A stretch of 35,058 nucleotides of DNA. Source: Methanobrevibacter sp. (GTDB lineage: Archaea; Methanobacteriota; Methanobacteria; Methanobacteriales; Methanobacteriaceae). The stretch is from assembly GCF_030539875.1 (NCBI RefSeq), contig NZ_JAUNXI010000019.1:1-35058 (forward strand), read 5' to 3'. Under the pieces are notes generated by a model. That model made no database searches. It was not told the DNA's origin and worked only from the letters and a program-made list of their open reading frames with translations. Below are positions 17,730-35,058 of this stretch, piece by piece; positions within the stretch are counted from its first letter, which is position 1, and every line of letters begins with the position of its first letter. The position numbers were made by a program, and so were the translations under genes.

Positions 17730-19622
17730 TCAGATATAGCCCATATCGGAAAGTTCTTTTAATCTCTCATTAAAGTAATCCTGTTTTTCTGATTTAATGC
17801 CTGAATTTAAGAATCTGAAAATAATCTGAAGTTCATCTTCATATAATTCCGTCTCGCAATAGAGTTTTGAGAGATTAAAATAAGGATAAGCATCATTTAC
17901 AAACAAATCATTATCCAACAGTTCACTGAAGAATCTGATTGCCGGTTCATAGTCCCTGTCCTCAACATATCCCTCCCCCATTTCAATAAGTTTCTGCTTT
18001 TCTATTAAATCAACTTCAAAGCCTCTGATTGATGATTTAAATGAATCCGGAAGGAAACTGTCAGGAAGAATGCCTCGAACATAACTTTTAAATCGATTGT
18101 CAATAAAATAGCTTATGCAGTAATCCCCATCATATCTCATTCCCCTTCCGTGAATCTGAACAAGACTAAGGCACGTTTTATAATCATACCATTCCCTATC
18201 AATGCTTGTTCTCTGATTAATCTGCCTGTCTCCCCAATCTGGAAATGGAAGCTTATACATAATCTGAAAACGGCACAAATCACCTGGCAAGTCAACCCCT
18301 TCACCCATTGAAGGAGATATTAAAACTAAAGGCTCATCCGATGAGATGAACTCCTCAAGTATTTCACTGCGGTTATCACTGTCATGGGCTATTAGTCTGG
18401 AACTGTCCAGGTTGTCCATTAAAAAATCCCTGCATTTCCCGCTGACCGTGTGAATAATTCCCTTTTCATTTTCATGCCTATTTAAGATTTCATTTATAGT
18501 TTTAATGGTTTTTGGAGCATTTGCATTTATAAAATTTCTTGAGAGATTATAATCATCAAAAGCCATTATGGGATTATTTTTAATATCAAAAGGACTTTCC
18601 CGCCTGATTGCGTAAATTTCACTTTGGGATATTCCAAGCCACTGGGCAAACAGCCTATAGTCAAGAATCGTTCCGCTCATAAACAGACAGACATCGGCAA
18701 AGTCAAAGAGGGTGGCCTTTGCATAGTTGTCAATTTTTAAAGGCTTAAACTGTGCGGTCTGGCTTTCTTCATCCCAGTCGAAAATCCATATTTCAGGGTC
18801 CCTTGCAATATGGTCAATAAAACGGTTGGAGTCATTGATCTGATGTCTTATAAATGCTATTTTTTCTAAAAGCTCATCTCTGTTTAAGCTTATGAGACGG
18901 TTTAACTCCTCCTGATACATTTCTTTAATCTCGCTAATAAAACCAATCCAATTTGAGCAGCCATAAGCGTTTAACTCTTCGATTTTTTCATCTGTCAGAT
19001 TGAAATTAAGGTATTCCTTCAAATCACTTTTTGAAAACTCCAAAGTCAGCTCATCCATTAATGCAGACTCCAAATTATGGGCCTCGTCAAAAATCAGCAA
19101 ATTCCTTTTCTGAAAGTCCCCCACATAATTAAGCTCCAAAAACATGTAATAATAGTTTGAAATGACTGTTCTGGCATTTAATGCAAGGTATTTCTGATAG
19201 TAATACGGGCACGTGTTGTCAGGACGTATTTCATCCTTCCTGTTTTTAAGTGAGAACCTGCACTCAAAACCTTCGGCTATGCATTTTCCCTCGCCGCAAG
19301 ACTTATTTAAATAATGCAGACACTTAAAGTTCATGCGGCCCTTGACAAGTGAAATATCATTAAAGTCCCTCAGATACTGGTCCTGCAGCTGCTTGGTGAT
19401 GGTTAAAATGTATGATGAGTCTGACATGCCGGCCAATGCGGCAGCTATTGCTGATTTGCCGGTTCCTGTTCCGGCTTCAAGTACAATGTATTTATATCCC
19501 TGATTTACAGCGTCAGCTATTTCAGAAACTGTTTCAAGCTGATCTTTTCTTGGATTTTCAAAAGGAAAGTGCTTTTTAACCTCAGGGTTAATTTTTGAAT
19601 AACTGCTGTATTGCCATGACAT
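17730..19622 (-). CDS. DinG/XPD-type Fe-S DNA helicase
   Basis: A superfamily-2 5'-3' helicase of the XPD/DinG group. Seen: ENPRKDQLE Q-motif-like start, Walker A EAGTGTGKS (50-57), cysteines 101, 109, 114 and 121 (plus 138) spaced as in an Fe-S cluster, TVISNYYYM, DEAH box LIFDEAHNLE (179-182), and C-terminal motifs MSGTILD, SPSMGEGVDLPG, and QIHGRGMRYDGDY. After residue 545 there is an extra helical end (EGYVEDRDYEPAIRFFSELLDND ...FNLSKLYCETELYEDELQ) resembling TPR repeats, which is not part of the core helicase. It would unwind DNA, such as repair intermediates or flaps. It stands between the zinc-ribbon gene and the AAA+ unit in the same direction. A role in defence or repair is open. Confidence 0.85.
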   Translation of the reverse strand: MSWQYSSYSKINPEVKKHFPFENPRKDQLETVSEIADAVNQGYKYIVLEAGTGTGKSAIAAALAGMSDSSYILTITKQLQDQYLRDFNDISLVKGRMNFKCLHYLNKSCGEGKCIAEGFECRFSLKNRKDEIRPDNTCPYYYQKYLALNARTVISNYYYMFLELNYVGDFQKRNLLIFDEAHNLESALMDELTLEFSKSDLKEYLNFNLTDEKIEELNAYGCSNWIGFISEIKEMYQEELNRLISLNRDELLEKIAFIRHQINDSNRFIDHIARDPEIWIFDWDEESQTAQFKPLKIDNYAKATLFDFADVCLFMSGTILDYRLFAQWLGISQSEIYAIRRESPFDIKNNPIMAFDDYNLSRNFINANAPKTIKTINEILNRHENEKGIIHTVSGKCRDFLMDNLDSSRLIAHDSDNRSEILEEFISSDEPLVLISPSMGEGVDLPGDLCRFQIMYKLPFPDWGDRQINQRTSIDREWYDYKTCLSLVQIHGRGMRYDGDYCISYFIDNRFKSYVRGILPDSFLPDSFKSSIRGFEVDLIEKQKLIEMGEGYVEDRDYEPAIRFFSELLDNDLFVNDAYPYFNLSKLYCETELYEDELQIIFRFLNSGIKSEKQDYFNERLKELSDMGYI

Positions 19623-20531: not shown

Positions 20532-20898
20532 TTAAGCAACAATCTGTGATTGATAAAAACCGTCATCAGGATTTTCATTTTGCAATTCAACAATCTCTTC
20601 ATCACTTAAAACTTTTGCTATAACCGCATCAGAAGAAACAAATTTTACCTCACAAAAACTAATGTCATTGATTTTATCATAAATCCTTCCGGCACTCATA
20701 GTTCCTTTAGTTACAGTACGAGTGCTGTTAGCAATATAACCCGTTTTTCCAATATATTTAATCTCACAGGCTATTGCCTCCATATCATAATCATTATCCG
20801 GCTCTTTAACTAATTTCACTAGATCCGATTTTAAAAACTTTGCTTCCTTCATAATTTTTTAATCCAACAATTGTTGTATATAACTCCTGACCGGCCAT
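20532..20898 (-). pseudogene. HIRAN-domain protein gene, frameshifted
   Basis: The frame 20532-20852 encodes LVKLVKEPDNDYDMEAIACE ... GKTGYIANSTRTV and GTMSAGRIYDKI, the core of a HIRAN domain, a small DNA-end binding module also found alone in bacteria and archaea. Its first residues do not fit the family. In another frame upstream, from ATG 20898 with GGTGAT before it, the sequence MAGQELYTTIVGLKNYEGSK VFK reads as the missing N-terminal strand. So one gene is split by a small indel somewhere in 20820-20837, a T/A-rich tract. This could be real decay or a sequencing error. It is divergent from the cas6 remnant. The 106-residue frame alone would lack the first strands of the fold. Confidence 0.7.
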
Positions 20899-21021: not shown

Positions 21022-21072
21022 ATGAGACTCAAAGTTAACCTTAAATCAAAAAACAACTTCAAAATTCCTTTT
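21022..21072 (+). pseudogene. cas6: cas6 5' remnant
   Basis: From ATG 21022 the frame reads MRLKVNLKSKNNFKIPF, the standard first beta-strand of Cas6 CRISPR-RNA endonucleases (usually followed by NYNYLL), and then runs into the terminal repeat of the insertion element. GTGAT precedes the start. Only about 17 codons remain; the matching 3' part lies beyond the element at 22449-22699. Cas6 cleaves CRISPR repeat RNA into guides; this copy cannot make a working enzyme. The assignment of this short piece depends on the downstream part. Confidence 0.6.
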
Positions 21073-21093
21073 ATAGTTAATTACCAAACTTTT
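21069..21093 (+). repeat. Left terminal inverted repeat of the IS630-family element
   Basis: The 25 bp around AGTTAATTACCAAAC are a perfect reverse complement of 22427-22451. The outermost bases may be flank, since a TA target duplication (TATA at both ends) is expected for this family. The transposase stop codon (21081-21083) lies inside this repeat. Confidence 0.9.
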
Positions 21094-22446
21094 GGTATAA
21101 CTGTTTCGAGCCATTTGTCATAAACTTTTGTTCCCGAAATTGATTCTTCATATGTTTTTATTGTTAATTCCTGTAAAAATTCTTTTGATTTAAGATAATA
21201 ATGTTTTATTTCTCTTTTCATTTGTCTCCATATTTGTTCTATTGGATTTAAGTGAGGCGAGTACGGAGGAAGGTATATTAATGTAATATTGAGATATAAT
21301 GCTATTTTTTTGATAAATGCGGATTTGTGGATGCTGTAATTATCTAATATTAAACATATTCTTTGTTCGGTTTGTGTTTTTAGTAATATGTTTTCTTTTT
21401 CTAATAGATTTAAGGTTATTTTTCTTCTTATTTCTCTTCTTTTTTTTCACATTTTTGAGTGATTCTCGATTGCAGTGTTTTCCAATTATTCTGGCGATTG
21501 TTGAGGTTGTATCGTCTTTATATTTTTCTATTGTTTTTAAAATTTTTTCTGTGAAAACTTTATTATTTTCGTTGTTTTCTATTAAAATTTCGTCTATTTC
21601 TTCATCAGTTAAGTTTACTTCATTTATGATTTTGTTTAATATTTTTACAGTATTTTTATTCTTTGTGTTTGCACATCTTAGTTCTAAGAGTGCTATTGCA
21701 ATTTCGGGGTGCTGTTGAGGAGTTTGTGATTGTGATGGTTGAATTTCCATTTATTGCTAATGATCCTGTGGCGTTTATTTTGAATTTATATGGATTTATA
21801 GTTTGTGTGTGTTTTGTTCCTTTTTTATAGAGTGATTTTTGTGTATATGGTTCGTTTTGAAATGATGCTTCGTCAAATAAGGCTATAATATCGTTTGAAT
21901 TTACATTATATTCTTCTAAGTTTTTTTTAACTGTTTTTCAGCATCTTCAGGAGATTTTGAAAATTTGGGATATGCCTTGCTGTAATTGTATCCTAATTTT
22001 TTCACAATTTTTCCTATTTGCTTTAAACTATAATCTACATTGAATTTTTCATTAACAAGAAGATGTACGTCTTTCATTGACATATTAGGTGTTTCTTCAA
22101 TGATTTTATCTAATTCAATTAGTTGATCATATGTCAATTTTGAAGGTCTTCCACCACCAAATGAGGGTTTTAAACCTTCCAAACCTTCACTTTCACATGT
22201 TTTAGCCCATCGATGAACTGTTTGATATGATTTTCCAATTATTCTTGCAGCTTCCGCAATGCTATGACCTTCACTGATTATTCTAATTGCAATTAATCGT
22301 TGATAATACCTGTGGTAGGCAACATATTTTGCGATTTCTTCATCAAGGGCTGTTTTTTTCACATTTTTTAAAACATCAACCTTGGATTTTCCTGACATAA
22401 TTTATTATTTGTCAGTCATCTATAATAAAAGTTTGGTAATTAACTA
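21074..22446 (-). mobile_element. IS630/Tc1-mariner-family insertion sequence, about 1.37 kb
   Basis: The element is bounded by perfect inverted repeats (TAGTTAATTACCAAAC... on the left) and flanked by TA on both sides, the target duplication of this superfamily. It carries one transposase with winged-helix DNA-binding and DDE domains on the minus strand, broken by three frame changes. It has landed in cas6. The missing middle of cas6 shows that insertion was accompanied or followed by a deletion. Exact ends are uncertain by two bases because of the TATA at each side. Confidence 0.85.
21081..22398 (-). pseudogene. IS630-family transposase, three frame changes
   Basis: The first 160 codons (22398-21916) encode a helix-turn-helix domain: GHSIAEAARIIGKSYQTVHRW, GGGRPSKLTYDQL, and YSLKQIGKIVKKLGYNYSKAYPK. 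The catalytic domain follows in other frames: ALFDEASFQNEPYTQKSLYKKG (first Asp), then ICLILDNYSIHKS (second Asp) and LIYLPPYSPHLNPIEQIW (Glu), ending VIPKVW inside the left terminal repeat. Frame changes fall at an A8 run (21921-21928, needs a -1 shift), a C4 run (21706-21709, +1) and another A8 run (21440-21447, +1). The first lies at TTA-AAA-AAA-AC, a plausible programmed -1 site, though the other two suggest decay or base-calling errors. DDE residues are all present. Confidence 0.85.
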
Positions 22447-22451
22447 TAAAA
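22427..22451 (-). repeat. Right terminal inverted repeat of the IS630-family element
   Basis: Perfect 25-bp reverse complement of 21069-21093, containing GTTTGGTAATTAACTA, 28 bases upstream of the transposase ATG. The transposase promoter probably overlaps this end. Confidence 0.9.
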
Positions 22452-22699
22452 AATATTGTGTTTTTAATGGAATTAAAAGCACTGATAAAAAAATTAAAGT
22501 CTGCTCCGAAATGGCTAATGTTAAAAGAAAAAGAATAACAATCCCCAAAGGTCCCCATACAACTTAGCACAGAGCATATATGATGGATTTAATTCTTGAA
22601 GGAGATATCGATTTAATTGAATTTGCCTATGATGTAGGCCTTGGAGAAAAGAATTCTATGGGCTTTGGCATGATTAGATATATTGAACCTAACGATTAA
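22449..22699 (+). pseudogene. cas6: cas6 3' remnant with in-frame amber codon
   Basis: The frame KKYCVFNGIKSTDKKIKV ... VKRKRITIPKGPHTT[23 protein letters not shown] continues to [19 protein letters not shown], the Gly-rich C-terminal hallmark of Cas6 endonucleases. TAG at 22565-22567 stands where CAG (Gln) would fit, so it is a point nonsense change. About 80 codons remain; with the 17-codon 5' piece at 21022, roughly 130-150 central codons expected for a 220-250-residue Cas6 are absent, including the catalytic His region. No other cas gene and no repeat array occur in the window. It ends 11 bp inside the DUF2075-like stub on the opposite strand. Confidence 0.8.
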
Positions 22700-22829
22700 T
22701 CATTTCAAGCCGTTTTTTAATATAACCCTGAAGCAGCATGTCTTCACAGTAAATATAACATCCCTTCATTCCACGTATCATCAGTGTGCGATAAGTGTTT
22801 TTGATTATTTCTTCATCATCTATTGGCAT
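22689..22829 (-). pseudogene. C-terminal stub of a DUF2075-like (helicase/AAA) protein
   Basis: From ATG 22829 the frame reads MPIDDEEIIKNTYRTLMIRG then [26 protein letters not shown]. The phrase NTYRTLM.RGMKGCYIYC is the conserved end of DUF2075 proteins, P-loop NTPases of the Schlafen/helicase group found in defence islands. Only about 46 residues remain, so this is a remnant whose main body is lost, presumably displaced where the BREX operon now ends (brxL stops 6 bp upstream). Alternatively, it is translated as a small peptide after brxL, but no ribosome site is evident. Confidence 0.6.
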
Positions 22830-22834
22830 TACTC

Positions 22835-24880
22835 TTATTCCACTCCTAAAGCCTTCATTACTGCTTCTTCCGGATTATTATATGGAATCATTGTAAATTT
22901 AGATAATAATTCTGGAGGAACTAAACCAAAATCAGCATATGAACTCATTGGAATTAAAACTTTTTTAGCTCCCGCATCAAGACAAACTTGTAGTGCATCA
23001 GCTAGGTTTTGTACTTTTTCAACAGTTCCACCTAAAGAGAAGTTACCTAATATGGCTGTTGCAGGAATAACTTGACGATTTATTGCAACACTACATAATG
23101 CTATAAAGGTTGCCAAAGTTAATTGCTTTGTCATTCCAACTCCATGTAAATCTTTAACCTGCATCACATAATCTTTATCTTTATATGAAATATTCCCACT
23201 AACTGAGTTTGCGTTTGACTTGAAATATTGATAAGCTATTTTTACAGATTCTGTAATTGGTTTTTTAGAACCTATGCCACTTGGTGTGAATTTTCCAGAT
23301 CCATTCATCATTTCTGTTTCAAATTTGAAAACACCTAGTTTTCCATTTTCGGATTCACCAATTGAATATAAATGTCCTGGTTTTAAATCTCCGTCCGGAA
23401 TTAGAGTGCTACTTGATTGTTCTTGTACTCCAACATAATTTTCATGGTTTTCTTCTAAATCAATATATGAAAAGTTTACATCATAAAATTCCATTCCACC
23501 AATCTTTTTAAGTTGTTCTTTAACTCTTCTTCTTGATTCAAGAGCCAATTCTAGGATTTCACGAATCTCCTCCTTATCAAAAATACCATCCGGATAAACT
23601 AATTTTACAAGACCTGAAACCATACGGTTAACTGCCATTACATCTCTTTGGTTTAAGTCAAACCCAAGTTTAAAATAATCTTGATACGCATCATTAAATG
23701 ACCGTTTACGCATTTCACGGAAGAATTCTGATAAAAAATCAGTTATGAATCCAAAATCATCAGTAAAGAATTCCGGTCTGTATTTTGGTATTTCCCAACC
23801 TGGAATATAACAATGCATCCTATCAAAAAATGCTGTATCAGTTCCCATTTCATTTGGGAATGGATCAAATAAACTGGATGTTTTTAGTAATGATTCAACA
23901 CTTTGATTGATGTTTCCAACAAATACCATTGATGCATTTGCATTTTTTTCTTCTTTTCCCCTGGAAAATGAACCTGAAGCCATAAAATCTTTCATAATAG
24001 CTATTCCATCTTGGTCTTTAAATTTGATTCCAGCCACTTCATCAAAGGCAACACAGTCCCATAATCCTACAAGACCAATTTGTCTAGTAGCCATATTATA
24101 AAATAAATTAGCAACAGTAGTTTGACCACCTGAAACTAAAATTGAATTTGGAGAGATTTCTTTATAAATATGTGATTTACCTGTTCCTCTAGGGCCTAGT
24201 TCGCATAAATTAAAGTTATTTTCAACAAGTGGAATTAATCTAGCTATTAATAACCACTTTACCCTTTCATCAAATTGGGTGGGTTCCATACCGCATGATT
24301 TTAAAATTACATCAATCCATTCATCTTTAGTGAAATTTTTCCTATTGATTAATATTTCATCCAAATTAATATTCGGGAGCTGAATAGGTTGCAAATCTTT
24401 AATTTTAATTGTATTAGCTCTAAAGTCAGATTCATCGAAATCATATTCTAAGTTTACCATACACCATAAATTACCGCCTAAAAGTCTTTCATATCTTTTT
24501 GGAAACTCAGGATTGATAGGAATATCTTTAAGACCTAAATTTGAGAAAGTTGCCAAATAAGTATCAAATTTATATTCTAACCGAACAGTTACAACATCAA
24601 TGATTGAATAAGAACCATACTCTCTTAATTTTGATAATATTTTTTGAGCTTCATCAGGCCTTACATAATTATTTGCAAGAATATTTTTAACTGTTTGAAC
24701 ACCTTGTTCAACTAAAGCATCATCTTGAGAACAATATTTACCCAGCAGATATTCTAAAACATAAACTGGAACATTTGCTCCCTCCTTAACTCTTTTTGTT
24801 AAATCTTTTCTTACAATTTTACCATCAAAATATTGTTTCAATTTTTCATTTAAATCATCTTGTAAATCATGTCCACCCAT
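22835..24880 (-). CDS. brxL: BREX protein BrxL, AAA+/Lon-like
   Basis: Type 1 BREX end-gene. BrxL forms AAA+ ring complexes that bind DNA and is needed for phage exclusion in some systems. Seen: Walker A LGPRGTGKSHIYKE near residue 230, Walker B WDCVAFDEVAG near 280, then conserved SASMVFVGNI-like segment (ANASMVFVGNINQS), and a C-terminal Lon-like domain from about 560 (GVGMTKQLTLATFIAL, ILGNFSLGGTVEKV, NLADALQVCLDAGAKKVLIP). The Lon serine motif (PSAG) reads MTKQ here and the catalytic Lys position reads Ala, so peptidase activity is doubtful. GGGGAG fits ATG 24880 better than ATG 24886. About 680 residues, normal for the family. It lies 11 bp after pglZ. Confidence 0.93.
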   Translation of the reverse strand: MGGHDLQDDLNEKLKQYFDGKIVRKDLTKRVKEGANVPVYVLEYLLGKYCSQDDALVEQGVQTVKNILANNYVRPDEAQKILSKLREYGSYSIIDVVTVRLEYKFDTYLATFSNLGLKDIPINPEFPKRYERLLGGNLWCMVNLEYDFDESDFRANTIKIKDLQPIQLPNINLDEILINRKNFTKDEWIDVILKSCGMEPTQFDERVKWLLIARLIPLVENNFNLCELGPRGTGKSHIYKEISPNSILVSGGQTTVANLFYNMATRQIGLVGLWDCVAFDEVAGIKFKDQDGIAIMKDFMASGSFSRGKEEKNANASMVFVGNINQSVESLLKTSSLFDPFPNEMGTDTAFFDRMHCYIPGWEIPKYRPEFFTDDFGFITDFLSEFFREMRKRSFNDAYQDYFKLGFDLNQRDVMAVNRMVSGLVKLVYPDGIFDKEEIREILELALESRRRVKEQLKKIGGMEFYDVNFSYIDLEENHENYVGVQEQSSSTLIPDGDLKPGHLYSIGESENGKLGVFKFETEMMNGSGKFTPSGIGSKKPITESVKIAYQYFKSNANSVSGNISYKDKDYVMQVKDLHGVGMTKQLTLATFIALCSVAINRQVIPATAILGNFSLGGTVEKVQNLADALQVCLDAGAKKVLIPMSSYADFGLVPPELLSKFTMIPYNNPEEAVMKALGVE

Positions 24881-24891
24881 GAGCATCTCCC

Positions 24892-27396
24892 CTAAAAGAA
24901 GTCAAAACCATCTTGAAAAGCCAAATCTATTGTAAATGGAATCCTATTAACTTCAATATCTTCTTTTAAATCCCTAATAATTAAATAATAATTTTTAGAT
25001 TTATCATATTGTTTTTGCAGTAATCTGAAACGTTCTTTAAATTCCCTATCTTCTGCCGAATCCGAATTCTTATCTGCAAAGATTATTTGTTCACCAGATA
25101 TTTTATTATTATCCTCATCAACAAAATAAACTGAAGCTTCCAATGGTAAAACATCCTGTGAAATGTTTTCTTTTTGGAAAAATGTTAACATTACATCATA
25201 ATTTGTAATCTTATTTTTAGTTGAAATTAATTGAAGTTCTACAGTCCTTTGGTTTTTAGCACCTTTTTCTGCTTTAACTTCAAGTAATGGAACAATACAT
25301 TCTTCTAAACTAGCTCCACCATGAACAAAATTAAGTCCAGCACCTTGTGCTTTAAATACATCTGCACCTATCGGAACATTAACATACCTATCCATGTTTA
25401 GATATTCCATAGATAAAGAAACTGCACCATCTATTTTTAAAGGTTTTTCAGATAAAATAAAACGTTTATGTTTTTTTTCTGGGAATTTATCTAAATTAAC
25501 TTTATCATGCTCTTTTAATTTGTCACGTTTATAAATAAATCCATGGTCTGCAGTAATAAAAATTTTAGCAAAATTACCTTGATCTCTTAATCTTTTAATT
25601 AATACTTCTAAATCTCCAATTGTTTCTTGAGCAGCATTAAACACTTCATTTTCAGAAGGAGCATGGTCTCCTCTAGCATCAATTTTATTATGGTAAATAT
25701 AAATTAAGTTTAATCCTTTTGTTAATTCTTTAAATTCCTTAGATTTTAATTTATCCACATCTTCGTAAGATATGGCAATTACTTCATTAACATTTGAACT
25801 TAAAATGTTATTCCTCTCATCAGTTGACCTGCAATTCATTCCATCAACTAATATTGTATCGCCTTCGTAAACAATTTCTTTATTAGGTAAAATTGAGGCC
25901 ATACCTAATGCAGTATATGATGGAATAGTAGATAACATTGGTTTAATCTCCGGAGTTCTTGTTGGATCTTTTTCAAGCTCTGCGAATAATTCAACTGCAC
26001 AGCCATATCTAAATGCATCTGAAATAATAACTGCAGTTTTATGTTTCCTAATTGAAGTTGGAATATGTTGTTTGAAGAACTTCCATTGTTTTGGAATGTC
26101 TAACTCAGAAATTGGTTTTTCAGCTAATTTTTTAGTGAATTTAGGATTAATTACACTTAAAAAACGGTTTACATATAAGTTTTCAACTAATTGCCTTAAA
26201 TCTTCAAGATACTCAGTATCATCTAATTTATCATAGAAGTAATAGAATTTCCTATAATATGAATCTAAGTAAACCCATTTTTCAGAATATTCTTTAATAA
26301 TTTCTTCAGGTTTTTCTGGAAGTTCACTTCGCATAAACTCATTAATTAAGGAAATAAATAAATTTGCATATTTTAAAACTTCATAATTATCCTCATATTT
26401 TAGATAAAAATGAGTTTTCTTTCTGTTTTCTAAAATCTCTTTAAATTCAGCACCTAAGTCCACTTTAGTTTCAAATAATAATTCAGTGTAATGATTAATT
26501 ATATTTTCATCGAATCTTTCAAATGAATCGCAATTTATGTAAGAATCAATGTTTGTTTTACTTAAGCTTGTAATATTAAGTTTTGATTCTAATTCTCTAG
26601 CTATTCTATCATAATATTCAGAATAATTTGCATTATCCATAAATTCACTAATAAATATAAAAGCATTGTTTTTATCAGAAACTAAATATTCATCCCATGA
26701 TTTTGGAGTTGGTCCTTGATATAAATGTGCAGTATAATTTAAAATTAAGAATCTGACCAGTCTTTTCACAGATGGATTGTCTTCTGAGTATTTAAATTTC
26801 CTTGAAATTAACTCCCAGAAATCTTCTAAGATATTATATTTTTCAAAGTTTTTTATAATTTCATTTTCTTCATTAAAATTATTGATAATCACTTCACGAA
26901 CAATATAATCAAAATTTAAAGTTTTCTGATTAGACAAAACTGCTAAAATAGCTTGTTTAATATTTAATTCAGTAAAAGAAACATTCAAATCTTTAAATGC
27001 ATTAACTCTTGATTTAGCATTCCAAAATAAAGAATACTTCTTAAGCAAATGATAAAACTCAGGAGAAATCCCTAATTCTTGTCCAATCATTTCAATCTTA
27101 TCAGCAGAAAATGGAACTGCATAATGGGTTAAATCTGCTAAATAATTTTCATTATCATCAGGTTGGGAGAATGGGGCATAAACAAGATAATTAGAATTTT
27201 TATCTTCAAATTCGATTTGATATTTAGTTTTAATCAAATTATTGTCTTTCAAGATATGTAGCTTAGCATTATTTAATTGAATATTATTAATATCTTCTAT
27301 AAATTCCTGATTTTCATCATACCAAAAGACAATTTGGCGATGATAAGCCTCATCAATAATTGAATTTATCCGGTTTTCAATTTCCTCAAGATTCAT
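24892..27396 (-). CDS. pglZ: BREX protein PglZ, alkaline-phosphatase-fold
   Basis: The defining BREX gene. The 834-residue PglZ (type A) has an N-terminal PglZ-specific region and an alkaline-phosphatase superfamily core: TAVIISDAFRYGCAVELFAEL (455-473) with the metal Asp, TIPSYTALGMASILP (490-504) with the nucleophile-region Thr/Ser, KIDARGDHAPSENEVF, and FITADHGFIYKRDKL (613-627) with metal-binding DHG. The C-terminal region has HGGASLEECIVPLL, again typical. Its catalytic role in BREX is not settled; it is required for defence and methylation in studied systems. Stop of the DUF1802 gene is directly adjacent to its ATG, GGGATTTAA being the ribosome region. Confidence 0.95.
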   Translation of the reverse strand: MNLEEIENRINSIIDEAYHRQIVFWYDENQEFIEDINNIQLNNAKLHILKDNNLIKTKYQIEFEDKNSNYLVYAPFSQPDDNENYLADLTHYAVPFSADKIEMIGQELGISPEFYHLLKKYSLFWNAKSRVNAFKDLNVSFTELNIKQAILAVLSNQKTLNFDYIVREVIINNFNEENEIIKNFEKYNILEDFWELISRKFKYSEDNPSVKRLVRFLILNYTAHLYQGPTPKSWDEYLVSDKNNAFIFISEFMDNANYSEYYDRIARELESKLNITSLSKTNIDSYINCDSFERFDENIINHYTELLFETKVDLGAEFKEILENRKKTHFYLKYEDNYEVLKYANLFISLINEFMRSELPEKPEEIIKEYSEKWVYLDSYYRKFYYFYDKLDDTEYLEDLRQLVENLYVNRFLSVINPKFTKKLAEKPISELDIPKQWKFFKQHIPTSIRKHKTAVIISDAFRYGCAVELFAELEKDPTRTPEIKPMLSTIPSYTALGMASILPNKEIVYEGDTILVDGMNCRSTDERNNILSSNVNEVIAISYEDVDKLKSKEFKELTKGLNLIYIYHNKIDARGDHAPSENEVFNAAQETIGDLEVLIKRLRDQGNFAKIFITADHGFIYKRDKLKEHDKVNLDKFPEKKHKRFILSEKPLKIDGAVSLSMEYLNMDRYVNVPIGADVFKAQGAGLNFVHGGASLEECIVPLLEVKAEKGAKNQRTVELQLISTKNKITNYDVMLTFFQKENISQDVLPLEASVYFVDEDNNKISGEQIIFADKNSDSAEDREFKERFRLLQKQYDKSKNYYLIIRDLKEDIEVNRIPFTIDLAFQDGFDFF

Positions 27397-27912
27397 TTAA
27401 ATCCCTTTTAAAATACTTTCAAATTCACTATCAGACAATACAGGTTTTAAATTATCCAATTTAACTTCCATATCTACATTAGCATATCTCATTCCACGGG
27501 TTCTGTTTAAATATTGGGGACTTTCAAGTTCATATACTCTTAAAATCCAAACTTGTGCCTTTGAATTACCTAAGTATGATTTTACATGGTCTCTTGTCCA
27601 GATATGATAATTATTTAAAGAACCAATTCTAGTTGAGGGTTTTTCCACAACCTTTTCAACTTTTGCATAATATTTTACTTCAAATTTAGAATCCTTTTTA
27701 TTTGGAAGTGCATTTTCTCTAACAAAATCTTTATAATCTTCTTGGAAACTGTCTAAATAATTATCTTTAAGGGCATAACTTACTGTTGGAAATAAAAGAA
27801 AGTCATCAACATTTGTACCATATTTTCTAATTAAAATTGATTGTTTTCCTTGACCTAATGCTTCAATTGTTGCATTCCATTCATTTAAACATTTAGTTAT
27901 TGATTCTGACAT
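27397..27912 (-). CDS. DUF1802-family protein inside the BREX operon
   Basis: The 171-residue protein reads CLNEWNATIEALGQGKQSIL then IRKYGTNVDDFLLFPTVSYAL, the start of DUF1802 proteins (W-x-A-x-x-x-L-x-x-G-x-Q-x-x-x-x-RK, then FLLFPT). The rest has YHIWTRDHVKSYLGNSKAQVWILRVYEL and a charged end. No biochemical function is known for this family. It has a GAGGTTAT ribosome site, begins 10 bp after brxC and directly abuts pglZ, so it is co-transcribed and translated with the BREX core. The canonical type 1 set (brxA, brxB, brxC, pglX, pglZ, brxL) lacks this gene, so it is an addition to this operon. Confidence 0.8.
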   Translation of the reverse strand: MSESITKCLNEWNATIEALGQGKQSILIRKYGTNVDDFLLFPTVSYALKDNYLDSFQEDYKDFVRENALPNKKDSKFEVKYYAKVEKVVEKPSTRIGSLNNYHIWTRDHVKSYLGNSKAQVWILRVYELESPQYLNRTRGMRYANVDMEVKLDNLKPVLSDSEFESILKGI

Positions 27913-27922
27913 TTAAATAACC

Positions 27923-30900
27923 TCATAGTTTTAAATTAATAATATCTGCATTTTCTAATTTATTTTTAAGTTCTGTTTTTACTTTTTGTAAGAATTCATC
28001 AATTTGATCTTCAGATTCAATTTTAACCTTAGGTGATAATGTTATTGTTTTAATGTCCACATCCACTTCCACAGGAATATTAATTGGTTGTTGTGGAGAT
28101 ACTGGTTTATTTATTGCACTTTCTGGAGGATCATTAGAAGTTATAGAATTAATAAATGAATCAATTTCATGGATGCAATTGTTTTTAAGATTTTCTGATT
28201 CCATTGTGATTCCATCAATAATAGCAATATTTTTTTCTGAATCCAATTTATTTTTAAGTGAATCAAATTTAGATATAACTTTATTTTCAAATTTAGCTTT
28301 CAACTCATCAGTATTTAGTCTTAATTTGATACTTTCATAATCTTCCTTTACTCCATTTAAAATAATTGTTTTTTTATCTTCCAATATTTCATCAAAATGT
28401 GTAGTGAATTTATTGTTTAATTCAGGTAGTTTTCTAATATTTGAATAAGGGTTTGGCATTGAAATAATTCTTTCAATTTCAGATGCAACATATGATAAAT
28501 CAGAATCATTGATTAAGTTAATATTTTCTTCATAAACTTTATATACTTCACAGGATTCATCAAAAATAGCTTTTTGACTTCCATTAAAGAATGCTAAAAC
28601 AGGATCTAAATCTTCAGCCAAATCCAAAAATTCTTCATCATTATCAGACACGTAGTTATAGAATTGCAATGTGTTTTTCTTATTGTTAGCATCATTAAAT
28701 AATTCTTTTGACTCTTCCAATATTGATTTGCCAGGATATTTATTTGATATTCTAAATTCTAAAAGACATTTATCAATTTCTTCAATTTTAGATGCATTAA
28801 CACGTTTAAATTCATCCATGATTCTTTCATCATTATCATGAGTTAAATTCAAACTGTAAACCTCTTTTAAAACTTCTTTAACTTTCCTAATTTTACTACT
28901 ATCAATAACTTCTTTTTCAGATACCAATAGTTTTTCTAAGTATTCATTTTTTGTTAAATAATCTAAAATTTTGGAGGCATCAGTATTTCTTAAAGAAATT
29001 TCATCACTATTAATTGTTAAGACAATTCTTTTTTGTGCAAATAATGAAGCAAGTAACCATTGCACATCCAAATTGACAAACCCATAAGGAGCTTTTGAAT
29101 ATCTGTTTAGTAGACTTTTTAGTGTAAGAGTATTATGTAGTTTTGACTGATCTGAAATATAATTGTCCATATCATTTACTGCATTCATAGCTTTTGTTTC
29201 ACTAGCTATCAGTGTCTGCTGATATTCATTTGTTAATTCTTTTTTAATATCACTTTTATCAGGTGCAAAGTCCATATAACTTAATTTATTATAAACTTTA
29301 TCAACTAACTTGCCCATTGATTCATCAAGTCTTGATTCAACATTTTTTTCAGCAATATCTACTTTATCTCCTTTAATATAAATTATTGCATCTTTAATAG
29401 AAGATTCAAGGAATAATTTGATTCTTTCTATTTTATCATTATATTCCTCTTGTTTTCTGCTTCTGAGTTCAACCTTCATTTCAGCACTTTTTTTAGTTAA
29501 ATATTTTTGAATTTGCAGTGCTTCTTTTATTTCATCAAATACTGTTAAATCAGAAAGTAAATGTACAACAACTTCATTGTTAGATTCTGATAATCCTTTT
29601 AAAATATTATGCATATTACTTTCTTCAAAAGTAGTTTGAGAGCAATCACTTAAATCTGATGTATAAAACGGAGTAATTATTCTCATTCCAATATCAAATT
29701 CTCTATTATTAATCTTTTTATTATCAATTGATTGATTAAATTGGAAATTATATCTATTGCTATAACGATATTTGTTTTTAGGGTAAATTTCTTGGAAAAT
29801 CCTATTTGCAGCATTATCTAAAACTTCACCATTATCAACTATTTGATTTTTAATTTCACGATTAATGTCTTGTTCTTCATTTGTTAAAAATGAATAAACC
29901 TCCCCATTTTTTTGGATTAAAGTTTGTTCAAGTAATCTGGATAATGATTTATCAACTTTATTTTGCAAATCAAGCCTATCTTCATTAATGTTAGAAATTA
30001 ATAATGTTGTTAAATTTTTAGATGTGGCTTTAATTTCTTTTACATACTTAATCATGAAAAGTACTTTTAAAACTTCTACATCAAAAGAGTATAATTCATT
30101 GTTATTCCTTGCTTTATTTATCACTTGACTGTTAGTATGATCTATGAATTGTTCAATAGCATTGTAAAAAATGTTAAATGGAACTAAATCACCATCAGAC
30201 TTATCTTTAATTTCAATTGCAGACTCTTGGAAAAGTGCAAGCATTGAACGTTCACCATCAGCCATGTGTTTTCCTGATGATGAATGTTCTCTTATTGATG
30301 TTAAAACATCCTGAACACGATTGAATTGATAAGGAACAAAAGGATAAATATTCGCAAAATCTCTTGCATCTTCATATGTTTTCATTTCAGCAGATTTTTC
30401 AAAAGTTAAAATATTTTTTAAAATGGGTTCAAAACTTGGATATTCTGCTTCTAAAGTTTTTTGGGCAACATCAGTTTTTGCTAGAATCCGTCTTCTAATT
30501 ACTTCATCTACATTTGAAGATGATAGAGATAAACGTGTTTTAAATCTTCCTTGAATTTTAGAAAAATCCATTCCTTTTATATCTCTGGCGATATCATCAA
30601 TGTTTTGTTGGCTCGTAACAACAACCCAAGATTTTCCATGACATTTAATTCCTAATTCTTCAACTATAGTTTGTAAGTTTAGCATTAATTTAGTATCATC
30701 TGCTATATATTGTCCAACTTCATCTACTAAAAATATTACATGATGATTATTTCCTTTATTGATACAGTATTCTTTCACTTCATTTGCAAAATCTTCAATT
30801 GAATACTTAAAGTTGTCTTCTGCTTTTGAAGCCCAATTATTAGCTTCGTTTTCACTCATAAATCCAATATTTACAACACTTTGTATAATATCATCACTTA

Positions 30901-31516
30901 TAAAGTAGAATTCATCTCTTGATTCTTCCCAATTCATTCCGGTGATATTTTCAAATTCTGTTTTAAACTCTTCAAATTTATTTTTTGCATCTAATTTTTT
31001 TTCAAAATCTGCTAAAAAGGGCATTCCCCCGCAATAGCCCTGCATTTCATTAAAAACTTTTACAAATACATTTAAAATATCATCTTTATTTGAACTTGAT
31101 TGTGATGATGATTTAGAATCTATATTAAATAAAACTACATCAGAACTAACATTTGTTGCAGCTTCCATATCTCCAATAACCATTGAATCTTTGATTTTTC
31201 CATCTTCCTTGAAAAAATCAATTGGTCTTCTTCCATGAACTTTAAGATTACTATCTAGAATATATGATAAAATTTTTAAAAAGTGAGATTTACCGCTTCC
31301 AAAGAACCCTGAAATCCAAACACCAATATCATCAGTAGGACTTTGTATTCCCTTATTATAACTTGAAAAAAACTTAGTAAAATGTTTCAATAGTTCATTT
31401 GTAACAACATATTCATCCAGTTCCTGATAAATATTTTCATCATCATTTTGACCGACTTTAATTACTCCTTTGATATCCCTGTCGATATCCTTTTCAAACA
31501 TGTTTTTTATTTGCAT
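27923..31516 (-). CDS. brxC: BREX P-loop ATPase BrxC
   Basis: A 1197-residue BrxC/PglY-type ATPase. Walker A is WISGFFGSGKSHFLKIL (67-83), Walker B VIFLVDEVGQY (260-270), followed by VVTSQQNIDDIARD as sensor region, and a GRFKTRLSLSSSNVDEVI segment. The C-terminal two thirds are long helical, Lys/Glu-rich stretches (about 640-1100), with a last domain IKTITLSPKVKIESEDQIDEFLQKV. It is the large motor-like core of BREX. AGGTGA stands before ATG 31516. It begins 4 bp after the brxB stop. No frame break is seen. Precise role (DNA tracking, complex assembly) is not known from sequence. Confidence 0.95.
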   Translation of the reverse strand: MQIKNMFEKDIDRDIKGVIKVGQNDDENIYQELDEYVVTNELLKHFTKFFSSYNKGIQSPTDDIGVWISGFFGSGKSHFLKILSYILDSNLKVHGRRPIDFFKEDGKIKDSMVIGDMEAATNVSSDVVLFNIDSKSSSQSSSNKDDILNVFVKVFNEMQGYCGGMPFLADFEKKLDAKNKFEEFKTEFENITGMNWEESRDEFYFISDDIIQSVVNIGFMSENEANNWASKAEDNFKYSIEDFANEVKEYCINKGNNHHVIFLVDEVGQYIADDTKLMLNLQTIVEELGIKCHGKSWVVVTSQQNIDDIARDIKGMDFSKIQGRFKTRLSLSSSNVDEVIRRRILAKTDVAQKTLEAEYPSFEPILKNILTFEKSAEMKTYEDARDFANIYPFVPYQFNRVQDVLTSIREHSSSGKHMADGERSMLALFQESAIEIKDKSDGDLVPFNIFYNAIEQFIDHTNSQVINKARNNNELYSFDVEVLKVLFMIKYVKEIKATSKNLTTLLISNINEDRLDLQNKVDKSLSRLLEQTLIQKNGEVYSFLTNEEQDINREIKNQIVDNGEVLDNAANRIFQEIYPKNKYRYSNRYNFQFNQSIDNKKINNREFDIGMRIITPFYTSDLSDCSQTTFEESNMHNILKGLSESNNEVVVHLLSDLTVFDEIKEALQIQKYLTKKSAEMKVELRSRKQEEYNDKIERIKLFLESSIKDAIIYIKGDKVDIAEKNVESRLDESMGKLVDKVYNKLSYMDFAPDKSDIKKELTNEYQQTLIASETKAMNAVNDMDNYISDQSKLHNTLTLKSLLNRYSKAPYGFVNLDVQWLLASLFAQKRIVLTINSDEISLRNTDASKILDYLTKNEYLEKLLVSEKEVIDSSKIRKVKEVLKEVYSLNLTHDNDERIMDEFKRVNASKIEEIDKCLLEFRISNKYPGKSILEESKELFNDANNKKNTLQFYNYVSDNDEEFLDLAEDLDPVLAFFNGSQKAIFDESCEVYKVYEENINLINDSDLSYVASEIERIISMPNPYSNIRKLPELNNKFTTHFDEILEDKKTIILNGVKEDYESIKLRLNTDELKAKFENKVISKFDSLKNKLDSEKNIAIIDGITMESENLKNNCIHEIDSFINSITSNDPPESAINKPVSPQQPINIPVEVDVDIKTITLSPKVKIESEDQIDEFLQKVKTELKNKLENADIINLKL

Positions 31517-31520
31517 ATGT

Positions 31521-32099
31521 TCACCTAATCAATGGAAATGCTCGATAATAGTTACTTCCTTCAATAGTATTAAATAAAACTAATTCTCTGCCAGAATATT
31601 GTCCTGGGAAAAATAAAACAACTGGAACTTCGTCTAACTTTTGATGTAAGTTATTTAAAACATTATGTGATCTTAATATTGGATAAGCCTTTCCAACACC
31701 AGTTAAAAATACAACACAGTTATCTGGAGTTCTCTCTAAAATATAGTTTACAATAACATTATTATTATCTGAATTTAATTTTAAAAGACTGATAATTGCT
31801 TTAGTTGTAAATTCTATCCCTTTTTTTTCTTCAAAATTAAAAACTTTTTCTAAATAACCTCTTTCATTTAAAATATCAATGATAATTTCATATAAATCAA
31901 ATTCTTTAATAGTAAATGCATAACTTGAATTATTGATTTTATTTTTAATCCTTGAAACTTCTTCACGAACTTTAAGTTCATATTTCGGATCATAATCAAA
32001 AATATAATAACCTACTTCATTACTTAAACCTTTATTCTCAAGAAATGAAGGCTCTTTAATTTTTGGTTCAATTTTACTAAGCTTCTCATCAATATTCAT
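31521..32099 (-). CDS. brxB: BREX protein BrxB (DUF1788)
   Basis: The 192-residue protein has the DUF1788 pattern: FDYDPKYELKVREEVSRIKN near residue 33, then the C-terminal core VVFLTGVGKAYPILRSHNVL, VPVVLFFPGQYSG and LVLFNTIEGSNYYRAFPLI. BrxB is a core type 1 BREX component with no established enzymatic activity, thought to act within the BREX complex. Its ATG overlaps the brxA stop by one base (TGATG), so translation is coupled. Confidence 0.92.
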   Translation of the reverse strand: MNIDEKLSKIEPKIKEPSFLENKGLSNEVGYYIFDYDPKYELKVREEVSRIKNKINNSSYAFTIKEFDLYEIIIDILNERGYLEKVFNFEEKKGIEFTTKAIISLLKLNSDNNNVIVNYILERTPDNCVVFLTGVGKAYPILRSHNVLNNLHQKLDEVPVVLFFPGQYSGRELVLFNTIEGSNYYRAFPLIR

Positions 32100-32692
32100 C
32101 AGATTCCTCCAGTTATGGCATTTAAAAATGGTGTTAAATTATTTTGAGTTAATAATTCTTTTAATTTAAAATCTACAAATGGTAAAATAATTTTATAATC
32201 CTCTTCTTCTTTTTCTAAAAGGCCTGCTTCAATTAAAAAATTTTTATAATTAGTTTTAACCTTTCGAAGAGTTGTATCTTTCCAATTTTCAATTACTTCA
32301 CTTTGGTTAGATTTATTCATGAAAAAAATATCTAAATCTGAATCTTTTATAATGTAATTTCCTAAAATAATATGCTCTCTGAAGACTTCATGCATAAACT
32401 CAAAAAATAATTTATCATTTCTTAAAATTGAAATTAAAACTAATAATCTACCTGAATTTTGATCACAAGTTGATAAATATATTAATAAATCATTAGAAAA
32501 TCCATTTAATCGACGATAACATACATTAGTCAATTCACGTGCTCTACGTTCACTATCCACCTGATAAATATTTTCAGTTAAAGATAACTCCATTAACTCT
32601 TTTTTTGAAATATCTTCAGCTAGATATTCAGCAGTGTTTTTTGTTTCAAGATACCAAAATGAATGACTCATAATTCCAGCACTATACTTCAT
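32099..32692 (-). CDS. brxA: BREX protein BrxA (DUF1819)
   Basis: The 197-residue protein matches BrxA/DUF1819: SAGIMSHSFWYLETKNTAEY near the start, then DSERRARELTNVCYRRLNGF, LLVLISILRNDKLFFEFMHEV and a C-terminal wing WKDTTLRKVKTNYKNFLIEAGLL. BrxA is a small helical DNA-binding protein in studied type 1 systems. AGTGAT lies before ATG 32692. It is preceded by a 73-bp gap after pglX that could hold an internal promoter, and followed by overlapping brxB. Confidence 0.9.
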   Translation of the reverse strand: MKYSAGIMSHSFWYLETKNTAEYLAEDISKKELMELSLTENIYQVDSERRARELTNVCYRRLNGFSNDLLIYLSTCDQNSGRLLVLISILRNDKLFFEFMHEVFREHIILGNYIIKDSDLDIFFMNKSNQSEVIENWKDTTLRKVKTNYKNFLIEAGLLEKEEEDYKIILPFVDFKLKELLTQNNLTPFLNAITGGI

Positions 32693-32765
32693 AATATAAT
32701 CACTGTTATTAGTATGTGTTGAATTAATAATAAAAGTTTTGAAGTATTGCCCGGAAAATGTAAAA
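32693..32765 (-). promoter_or_regulatory. Short gap between pglX and brxA
   Basis: The only gap above about 11 bp within the BREX operon. Read on the minus strand it contains AACTTTTATTATTAATTC, a weak TATA-like tract some 45 bases before brxA, so a separate promoter for brxA-brxL is possible but not convincing. Confidence 0.25.
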
Positions 32766-35058
32766 TTAAAGTTTCTTTAGAAGGTTAATTTTTTTAGATT
32801 TTTTACCTTCCTTTGAAACTTGGACATTTTGGAATTTTGCGTAATTAACTTTAACACCATCATCTAGGTCAATTTCTATATTTTGATTAGCTATGTGAGA
32901 TAGTGCTTCATCATATTCTTGTGTTTCTTTTAATTGTTTTTGAAGTTTAGCTTTATCTTTAGTTGCTTTTACAACTTCTTGTTTTGATGATGAGTGATTA
33001 ATTATATTGTCACAGTTAGCTATTGCTTGTTCGATAGCTTTTTGAGTTTTATGCAAGTAATCTGTTCTAATTCTTGCAACTAAACTTGGTTCATATCTGT
33101 GCATATAAATTAGACAGTTGAAACCATTTTCTTTGCCGCTTGAAAATTGCCAGTAAATTGGGCATTTTTTGTATGTTTTTTTGTGATCATTGAAAAAGTT
33201 TTTAAGGAGATAATCTCTGATTTTTTCTCTTGAAGGTTTTTTATTTTTAGCTAGTGCATTAGCTATAAAATCAAGGTTTTCTTCTAAGGTTTCTTTGCCA
33301 AAGCATGTTTTTACAAATTCTACAAAACGATTAACAATATCATCTTCAAAATACTCGGAATCTAAAATTGGGATAATATTATCATCATCTGGAATGAATT
33401 TATGATAATTATTTATATTAAATTTACCTCCTGCAAATTGTAAACCTTCATTATCCAAACTATAACGACCAAACATACAACCAACAGCATAAGAAATAAA
33501 TGATTTAATATCCTTACTCAATATAGGGCAATATAATGTAATATCTTCTTTAACAATATTGTTAGAAATTTCTGACTGTAAATTATAAATTTTAATAAAT
33601 ATATCATTAAGTTTAAATTCATTTTCAAAAATCAGATTAATGAATTCATTTTGTTGTTTTGACCATTGTTGGAAATTATTAAAAATTAAATCACTATTAA
33701 ATTTTAAAAATGGATGTTTTATGAAATTCCAGCTAGTTTCAAAAGAATCCCAATCTAATTTAGAAATATCAATATTCTGAGTAACTAATTTATCTACTTC
33801 CTGTTTGAATGATTCATTATAAATAATAGGAACTTGAAGAATATTTTCTACTTGAAAATTTAATGTAGGATTGATAATCTTTAAAAAAGTAATTCCAACT
33901 TTACTAGTTAATAATGCTTGTAAATATTTTATAAAATCTCCTTTATCAAACATCCCAGAACCTGCAACATCCCACAAAAAACCATTTGGAAAATAACGTG
34001 TTGATAATGTTGACGAAGTAATATATGACCATGAAACATACTCTTTTAAATAAAAATCTGAAAATGATGCTTTCCCTCTTGTTTTATCTTTTGAACCATA
34101 TTTCCAATAAACAATATATTCTTGATTCCCATACCATTTTCTAAATTTTCCACCTTTATTATAAGGAATCCAATATTTACTATTCAAATCTATTTCATTG
34201 AACGAATTTTTATCAAATGCTATCTTATCTATTGATACTTCATGCCAAAATCTTAAAAATTTATCATTATTTCCAGTTATTATTCCCTGAAAAGAATCAA
34301 TGTATCTGGTAATATCTTCACCCTTTTCAAAATCATTTATAATCTCATTTGTTGCCCAGTATGCTATTGGAGATCCAGGAATTTTTTCAAAATTAGATTG
34401 ATTAAAAATTAAAGTATTTTCATCATTATGAAACTCTTCTTCTTTTCTGCTTTCTGAATTAAACTCAGTTAATCTGTGGAATGTTGATTTGTAATTTTTA
34501 ATTAAATTATTTCTATTAACAAAAGTTGTTGCTTGTACAACTTCACCACCAATTTCTTCAAATGCATGAGCTCCTAAATGAGCCATATTAATTATCGTGT
34601 GATTATTAATTAATTCAACCCTTAATTTTTCAAATGTTGATAAAAACATGAATGATTGCTGAGTAATCATTGCAACAAAACCTTTTTCATTACAGAAATC
34701 ATGACATCTTTCAATAAATACTGCAAACAAATCCGATTTTGAATTTAGATAATTTTTTTTCAAATAATCTTTTAAATTGGAATTCATACCACTATTTCCC
34801 ATGTATGGGGGATTTGTAGTAACAATATCATAGTTTTTAGCAAGTAATTTGGACTGACTAATAATAGTTTTCATTAATCGAAATTCGTTTTGGTATTTAT
34901 ATTTATTTAAATTATTCTCATTTAATTCATAATTGCATATAGCTTCAAATAGTTCATCAAAATTAATATTTTCAATATCTAAAATACTACCATATTCTTT
35001 TGCATTTTTAAATACATTATATAAATAATTCCAATTTTTTTCATTGGTTTTGTCTTGT
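32766..35058 (-). CDS. pglX: BREX adenine-specific DNA methyltransferase PglX, 5' end outside window
   Basis: PglX methylates adenine in a non-palindromic site to mark host DNA and is the specificity factor of BREX. The frame is open to the right edge: upstream of the internal ATG 34874 it continues as YGSILDIENINFDELFEAI ... YKYQNEFRL, so the annotated start at that ATG would be wrong. The visible 763 residues contain the methyltransferase motif IV DIVTTNPPYMGNSGMN, the FVAMITQQSFMFLSTFEKLR segment, the GGEVVQATTFV region, and downstream target-recognition and helical parts to the end. Full PglX is near 1200 residues, so roughly 400 N-terminal residues with the SAM-binding motif I lie beyond 35058. 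Here it precedes brxA, unlike the usual position after brxC. Confidence 0.93.
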   Translation of the reverse strand, partial: QDKTNEKNWNYLYNVFKNAKEYGSILDIENINFDELFEAICNYELNENNLNKYKYQNEFRLMKTIISQSKLLAKNYDIVTTNPPYMGNSGMNSNLKDYLKKNYLNSKSDLFAVFIERCHDFCNEKGFVAMITQQSFMFLSTFEKLRVELINNHTIINMAHLGAHAFEEIGGEVVQATTFVNRNNLIKNYKSTFHRLTEFNSESRKEEEFHNDENTLIFNQSNFEKIPGSPIAYWATNEIINDFEKGEDITRYIDSFQGIITGNNDKFLRFWHEVSIDKIAFDKNSFNEIDLNSKYWIPYNKGGKFRKWYGNQEYIVYWKYGSKDKTRGKASFSDFYLKEYVSWSYITSSTLSTRYFPNGFLWDVAGSGMFDKGDFIKYLQALLTSKVGITFLKIINPTLNFQVENILQVPIIYNESFKQEVDKLVTQNIDISKLDWDSFETSWNFIKHPFLKFNSDLIFNNFQQWSKQQNEFINLIFENEFKLNDIFIKIYNLQSEISNNIVKEDITLYCPILSKDIKSFISYAVGCMFGRYSLDNEGLQFAGGKFNINNYHKFIPDDDNIIPILDSEYFEDDIVNRFVEFVKTCFGKETLEENLDFIANALAKNKKPSREKIRDYLLKNFFNDHKKTYKKCPIYWQFSSGKENGFNCLIYMHRYEPSLVARIRTDYLHKTQKAIEQAIANCDNIINHSSSKQEVVKATKDKAKLQKQLKETQEYDEALSHIANQNIEIDLDDGVKVNYAKFQNVQVSKEGKKSKKINLLKKL

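Follow-up and report, generated by a model that had tools for sequence, protein, structure and literature searches.

Turnover of defence islands, in which CRISPR-Cas systems decay or are replaced, is a known process, and the locus described here resembles it in combining variable defence genes, gene scars and an apparently horizontally acquired BREX system at one site. Its central element, a remnant of a cas6 gene, is comparable at both ends to the Cas6 endoribonuclease of the Cst subtype of type I-B systems (TIGR01877, encoded with Cas8b1/Cst1, Cas7/Cst2 and Cas5t), and its 3' piece is 89-67% identical to Methanobrevibacter-like cas6 genes of this subtype. Unlike these genes, the remnant lacks the central part with a conserved histidine, contains an amber codon and an insertion element, and has no operon around it. 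The interruption is similar to an insertion of an IS630/Tc1-mariner element with an adjacent deletion, as judged by the TA target duplication, the DDE_3 transposase and a deletion bounded by the element; it differs in that the element itself is dead. A literature search found no paper on this locus.

Here we report an analysis of this locus in the window, the whole contig C19 (35,058 bp) of a Methanobrevibacter genome of 1.82 Mb in 40 contigs, and of the corresponding site in related genomes. We propose, with a probability of roughly 85%, that this defence island formerly included a second CRISPR-Cas locus, of a Cst-like I-B type, and that the remnant is its dead cas6 gene.

Structure and origin of the cas6 remnant

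The remnant consists of two pieces on the plus strand separated by an insertion element:

21022..21072, plus strand, cas6 5' piece, codons 1-17 (MRLKVNLKSKNNFKIPF), assigned by 80% DNA identity to the start of cas6 in genome G033
21072..22448, minus strand, IS630-type element with a 1373-bp core (21074-22446) flanked by TA repeats (21072-21073, 22447-22448)
22448..22699, plus strand, cas6 3' piece, comprising the final 83 codons plus the stop, with an amber codon at 22565-22567, assigned by PF01881 and identity to Cas6 of genome G018

An earlier note, made from the sequence of this stretch, had described a cas6 gene cut by an IS630 element, with its first 17 codons on the left, its last 80 codons on the right on the same strand, some 130-150 central codons gone and an amber codon in the 3' part. 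This description proved accurate, except that the right-hand piece, which is indeed the 3' end of a Cas6, is 83 codons long. The similarity of the 5' piece to the G033 cas6 start extends over 51 bp (E 2.5e-7), and 38 of its 51 nucleotides are identical in G018. The 3' piece alone matches PF01881 at 22568-22696 (E 2.2e-13), the TIGR01877 match at 22421-22678 covers profile positions 113-200 of 200 with one TAG within, and the encoded amino acids are 89%, 72% and 67% identical to the intact Cas6 proteins of G018, G033 and G020, respectively. Both pieces thus match the ends of the same genes in G018 and G033, and an origin from two different protein families, the outcome that would have overturned the earlier description, is rejected by these matches and by the profiles. 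Among named records, the nearest cas6 relatives are from Methanobrevibacter.

The reading frame of the 5' piece runs on into the 3' piece once one of the two TA repeats is counted, and the 142 codons that correspond to 18-159 in G018 are absent. The C-terminal glycine-rich motif (GxGxxxxxGFG), by which TIGR01877 and PF01881 proteins are recognised, is present in the remnant. The lost middle includes the H41 column, a histidine shared by all intact relatives in the alignment and, as for Cas6 proteins in general, probably the catalytic one. As the N-terminal region with the conserved histidine is missing, the remnant is filed as a pseudogene and not as a family member, and it has no function today. 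Differences between the 3' piece and its homologues at codon positions 1, 2 and 3 number 6/4/32 for G018 and 7/4/28 for G069; this pattern indicates that most of the divergence arose under selection and that the loss of cas6 is recent. Judging from these substitutions, the gene stayed under selection until recently.

The IS630-type element and the central deletion

The element between the cas6 pieces has perfect terminal repeats and a TA dinucleotide at either side, the inverted repeats and target duplication expected of the IS630 family, and HTH and DDE_3 domains on the minus strand. Full-length copies with the same TA-bounded ends were found in G009, G026, G070, G079 and other genomes, with identities of up to 92% (in G009). 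The first open reading frame (~161 aa) is also the longest frame in several other copies, and the frame change that follows it may therefore be normal for this element. The second transposase ORF, which is a single 280-aa frame in the G013 copy, is split here over three frames by two frameshifts; the copy in cas6 is thus dead, and no intact DDE transposase, a usual mark of IS630 membership, is encoded.

The element meets cas6 at two TA dinucleotides, in codons 17/18 on the left and in codons 159/160 on the right, and intact cas6 relatives carry a TA at both positions. Since each junction lies at a TA also found in intact genes, the deletion was likely mediated by the element. The 426-bp loss from cas6 could have been caused by IS630 in either of two ways, by two insertions at these TA sites followed by recombination, or by a single insertion plus an adjacent deletion. 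The main alternative, which concerns only this mechanism and is compatible with the origin of the remnant proposed above, is that a spontaneous in-frame deletion of the 142 codons came first and the element inserted later by chance at the joint. Collapsing one TA does join codons 17 and 160 in frame, as this order of events would require; however, the element would then need to have landed exactly on the deletion junction, and each junction, taken singly, resembles a plain TA insertion, so that we consider a prior deletion possible but doubtful. We also considered a deletion between copies of TTTAATTA, a short direct repeat close to either edge, and rejected it, as the observed joint would require a further loss of 4 bp.

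Insertion elements are a frequent cause of misassembly, and the two cas6 pieces might in principle have been joined artificially through collapsed copies of the element. The only other copy in this genome is 74% identical, too different to collapse, and the same site is broken in other ways in G028, G009 and G015, which leaves an assembly artefact hardly credible.

The same junction in related genomes

The following genes define the site around the remnant:

17730..19622, minus strand, DinG-like helicase forming the left core flank, with orthologues in G009 (74%) and G028 (69%)
20532..20852, minus strand, HIRAN-like ORF (106 aa), PF08797 E 0.0085, below the cut-off
22689..22814, minus strand, remaining 3' stump, ~41 codons, of a helicase of Schlafen group 3 (DUF2075), in convergent orientation to cas6

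The helicase stump matches only positions 328-354 of the 354 in PF09848 (E 5.1e-8), a fragment of the domain that a complete Schlafen group 3 helicase carries, and it is 83% identical in amino acids to the full-length helicase of G028. DNA similarity continues unbroken across the ends of cas6 and the helicase, at 22654-22814 with G009 (85%, 161 bp) and at 22510-22814 with G028 (75%, ~305 bp). On the other side, the block with the DinG-like helicase flanks the site in the same order in the window, G009, G028 and G015. The small HIRAN-like ORF lies directly upstream of the cas6 scar and is weakly similar to larger G028 proteins; by position, compared with G018 and G033, it now lies where a divergent cas8b gene would be expected.

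The full helicase was found in nine genomes, four of which have cas6 in the convergent position. In G069, cas6 has an open frame for 126 residues up to the contig edge; in G028, it is heavily decayed; and in G009 and G015, it is reduced to scars of 10-14 codons (MGFGMIKYIESKN, including FGMIKYIESK, and FGMLKYVETK, respectively). Of 20,000 random stretches of 70 nt, taken from sequence in which cas6 genes are themselves included, no more than 3 (0.015%) scored as high as these two scars. No cas6 scar was detected at the helicase junction in the other five genomes (G001, G002, G013, G064 and G066). These states bear out the suggestion of the earlier note that defence systems have turned over at this site. 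Unlike the usual cases of such turnover, the series at this one junction is unusually complete, with an open frame, a fresh remnant, a decayed gene and short scars. At a second site, in G010 (locus L033, 9472-9576), a 34-codon cas6 scar lies beside a surface-protein gene that flanks the intact I-B locus in G033.

The recurrence of scars at one junction (in the window, G009, G015 and G028), and again at another site in G010 as compared with G033, would also be expected if the 3' end of cas6 were selectively kept, the convergent ends of cas6 and the helicase holding a terminator or antisense element needed by the neighbour. We regard such retention as very improbable.

Probable association with a type I-B locus

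Among the six relatives with cas6 genes at least 60% identical, five (G018, G078, G084, G033 and G020) have I-B genes beside cas6, and the lost gene was thus most likely part of a Cst-type I-B operon. In G018, the neighbours of cas6 are genes resembling Cas7/Cst2 and Cas5 together with a large ORF at the place of cas8, and in the other four genomes cas6 lies within Cst-type I-B operons, for which the G033 operon (cas8b1-cas7-cas5-cas3-cas4-cas1-cas2) served as the reference. In addition, a leader of ~60 bp upstream of the remnant start aligns with the G018 intergenic region between cas6 and the gene in the cas8 position.

At the site itself, cas8b, cas7, cas5 and cas3 are absent from the neighbourhood of cas6 in the window, G028 and G009. 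A search for remnants of cas8, cas7, cas5, cas3, cas4, cas1 and cas2 in the window, G028, G009, G010, C31 and C29 yielded none at the site; its sole match was the separate cas1 gene on contig C29. No orphan array with the Cst-type repeat of G033 and G020 was detected, a single match with two mismatches on contig C1 being the only hit, and neither CRISPR-like repeats nor Rfam families were found in the window. No other cas trace is left at the site; the whole operon was presumably lost, the genes other than cas6 by deletion.

The same absence of other cas remnants would also fit the main rival to an operon origin, namely that the remnant derives from a solitary cas6 gene, a stand-alone crRNA endonuclease lost without any CRISPR locus. 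Such genes are found in G085, whose cas6 (62% identical to that of G018) is without cas neighbours, and in G016, where a more distant cas6 (42%) lies among non-cas genes. A solitary origin is nevertheless unlikely, given that five of the six cas6 genes most similar to the remnant have I-B neighbours and that the leader still aligns with the G018 intergenic region. The solitary Cst-clade gene of G085 (L206, 9677-10417) lies beside small ORFs, possibly a toxin-antitoxin pair. We retain the origin from a Cst-like I-B locus, in agreement with the earlier note, which had called the remnant a fossil of a lost CRISPR locus.

The BREX block and the present defence island

The region to the right of the helicase stump is occupied by BREX genes:

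22815..22829, junction between the helicase stump and the BREX block; homology to G009 and G028 stops at 22814, and homology to the G033 BREX block starts at 22830
22835..24886, minus strand, brxL, TIGR02653/PF13337
24892..27396, minus strand, pglZ, BREX-1 type A, TIGR02687 (615 bits)
27397..27912, minus strand, DUF1802 protein inside the BREX operon, PF08819 E 4e-31, 99% amino acid identity in the G033 operon
27923..31516, minus strand, brxC, NF033441 (1182 bits)
31521..32692, minus strand, brxB and brxA, PF08747 and PF08849
32766..35057, minus strand, pglX, running off the contig end, PF07669; an alternative pglX copy lies on contig C31

The set of brxA, brxB, brxC, pglX, type A pglZ and brxL corresponds to a type 1 BREX system. 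The earlier note had called the operon intact, which holds for all of these genes except pglX, cut by the contig end. The helicase cut and the BREX block are separated by at most 15 bp. The block is 94.2% identical in DNA over 10.8 kb to that of G033, another species, and its homology stops where brxL ends, which leaves the size of the transferred unit uncertain. Within 22830-33625, compared with locus L081 of G033, DNA identity is 94% overall, yet the brxL proteins are 88% and the brxB proteins 100% identical. The BREX system appears to be a recent acquisition, which would have come by horizontal transfer and taken the place of the helicase body. The order of the insertion, the deletion and the arrival of BREX is not readable from one genome.

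Several alternative, partly inverted pglX copies lie alongside a recombinase-like ORF, at 32766-35057 in the window, at 159-2090 and 2087-3124 on C31 (L085), and in G033 (L086), which suggests a phase-variable methyltransferase specificity.

Contig C22 terminates in a complete Csh-type I-B operon that includes Cas1 and Cas2 and is accompanied by an array of at least 14 repeats. The genes cas6-cas8b-cas7-cas5-cas3-cas4-cas1-cas2 followed by the array were assigned to type I-B by TIGR01877, TIGR02591, TIGR02590, TIGR02592, TIGR01587, TIGR03641, TIGR01573 and the 14 repeats, with cas4 placed by position and ORF only. Its Cas6 is only ~27% identical to the lost type. A genome without CRISPR is thus ruled out, and the loss envisaged in the earlier note applies to the old locus at this site, while a different I-B operon, complete and with its array, is kept elsewhere in the genome. 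Another cas2-cas1 pair, whose Cas1 is not closely related to that of the I-B type, lies near one end of contig C29 (L039, 12849-14118), a contig on which neither an array nor further cas genes are present.

At one end of C31 there are 15 further array repeats; onward lie a gene whose G009 relative adjoins a MazG-helicase pair, a recombinase-like gene and the alternative pglX copy. A single contig of G009 carries, in this order, the core genes of C22, the helicase next to its cas6 scar and the core genes of the window. From this order and the content of C31, we infer that C22, C31 and C19, separate in the assembly, form one island in which BREX lies between the new I-B system and the old cas6 scar, these two marking its ends. 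The different I-B system of C22 would thus now occupy the opposite end of the island from the remnant. The locus is an instance of defence swapping rather than of CRISPR loss, clear-cut and of a type already known.

Discussion

The locus is a well-resolved but ordinary pseudogene within a defence island, and what stands out most is the succession of cas6 scars at a single junction. As a whole, it is a tidy but ordinary record of the replacement of one defence system by another. For the methanogen, it gives a base-resolved view of defence turnover, in which an old I-B system decayed and BREX and a different I-B system are now found in the same interval. With cas6 scars at a fixed junction, losses of CRISPR can be counted from genome to genome, and such counts would be useful for estimates of loss rates that gene presence or absence alone misses.
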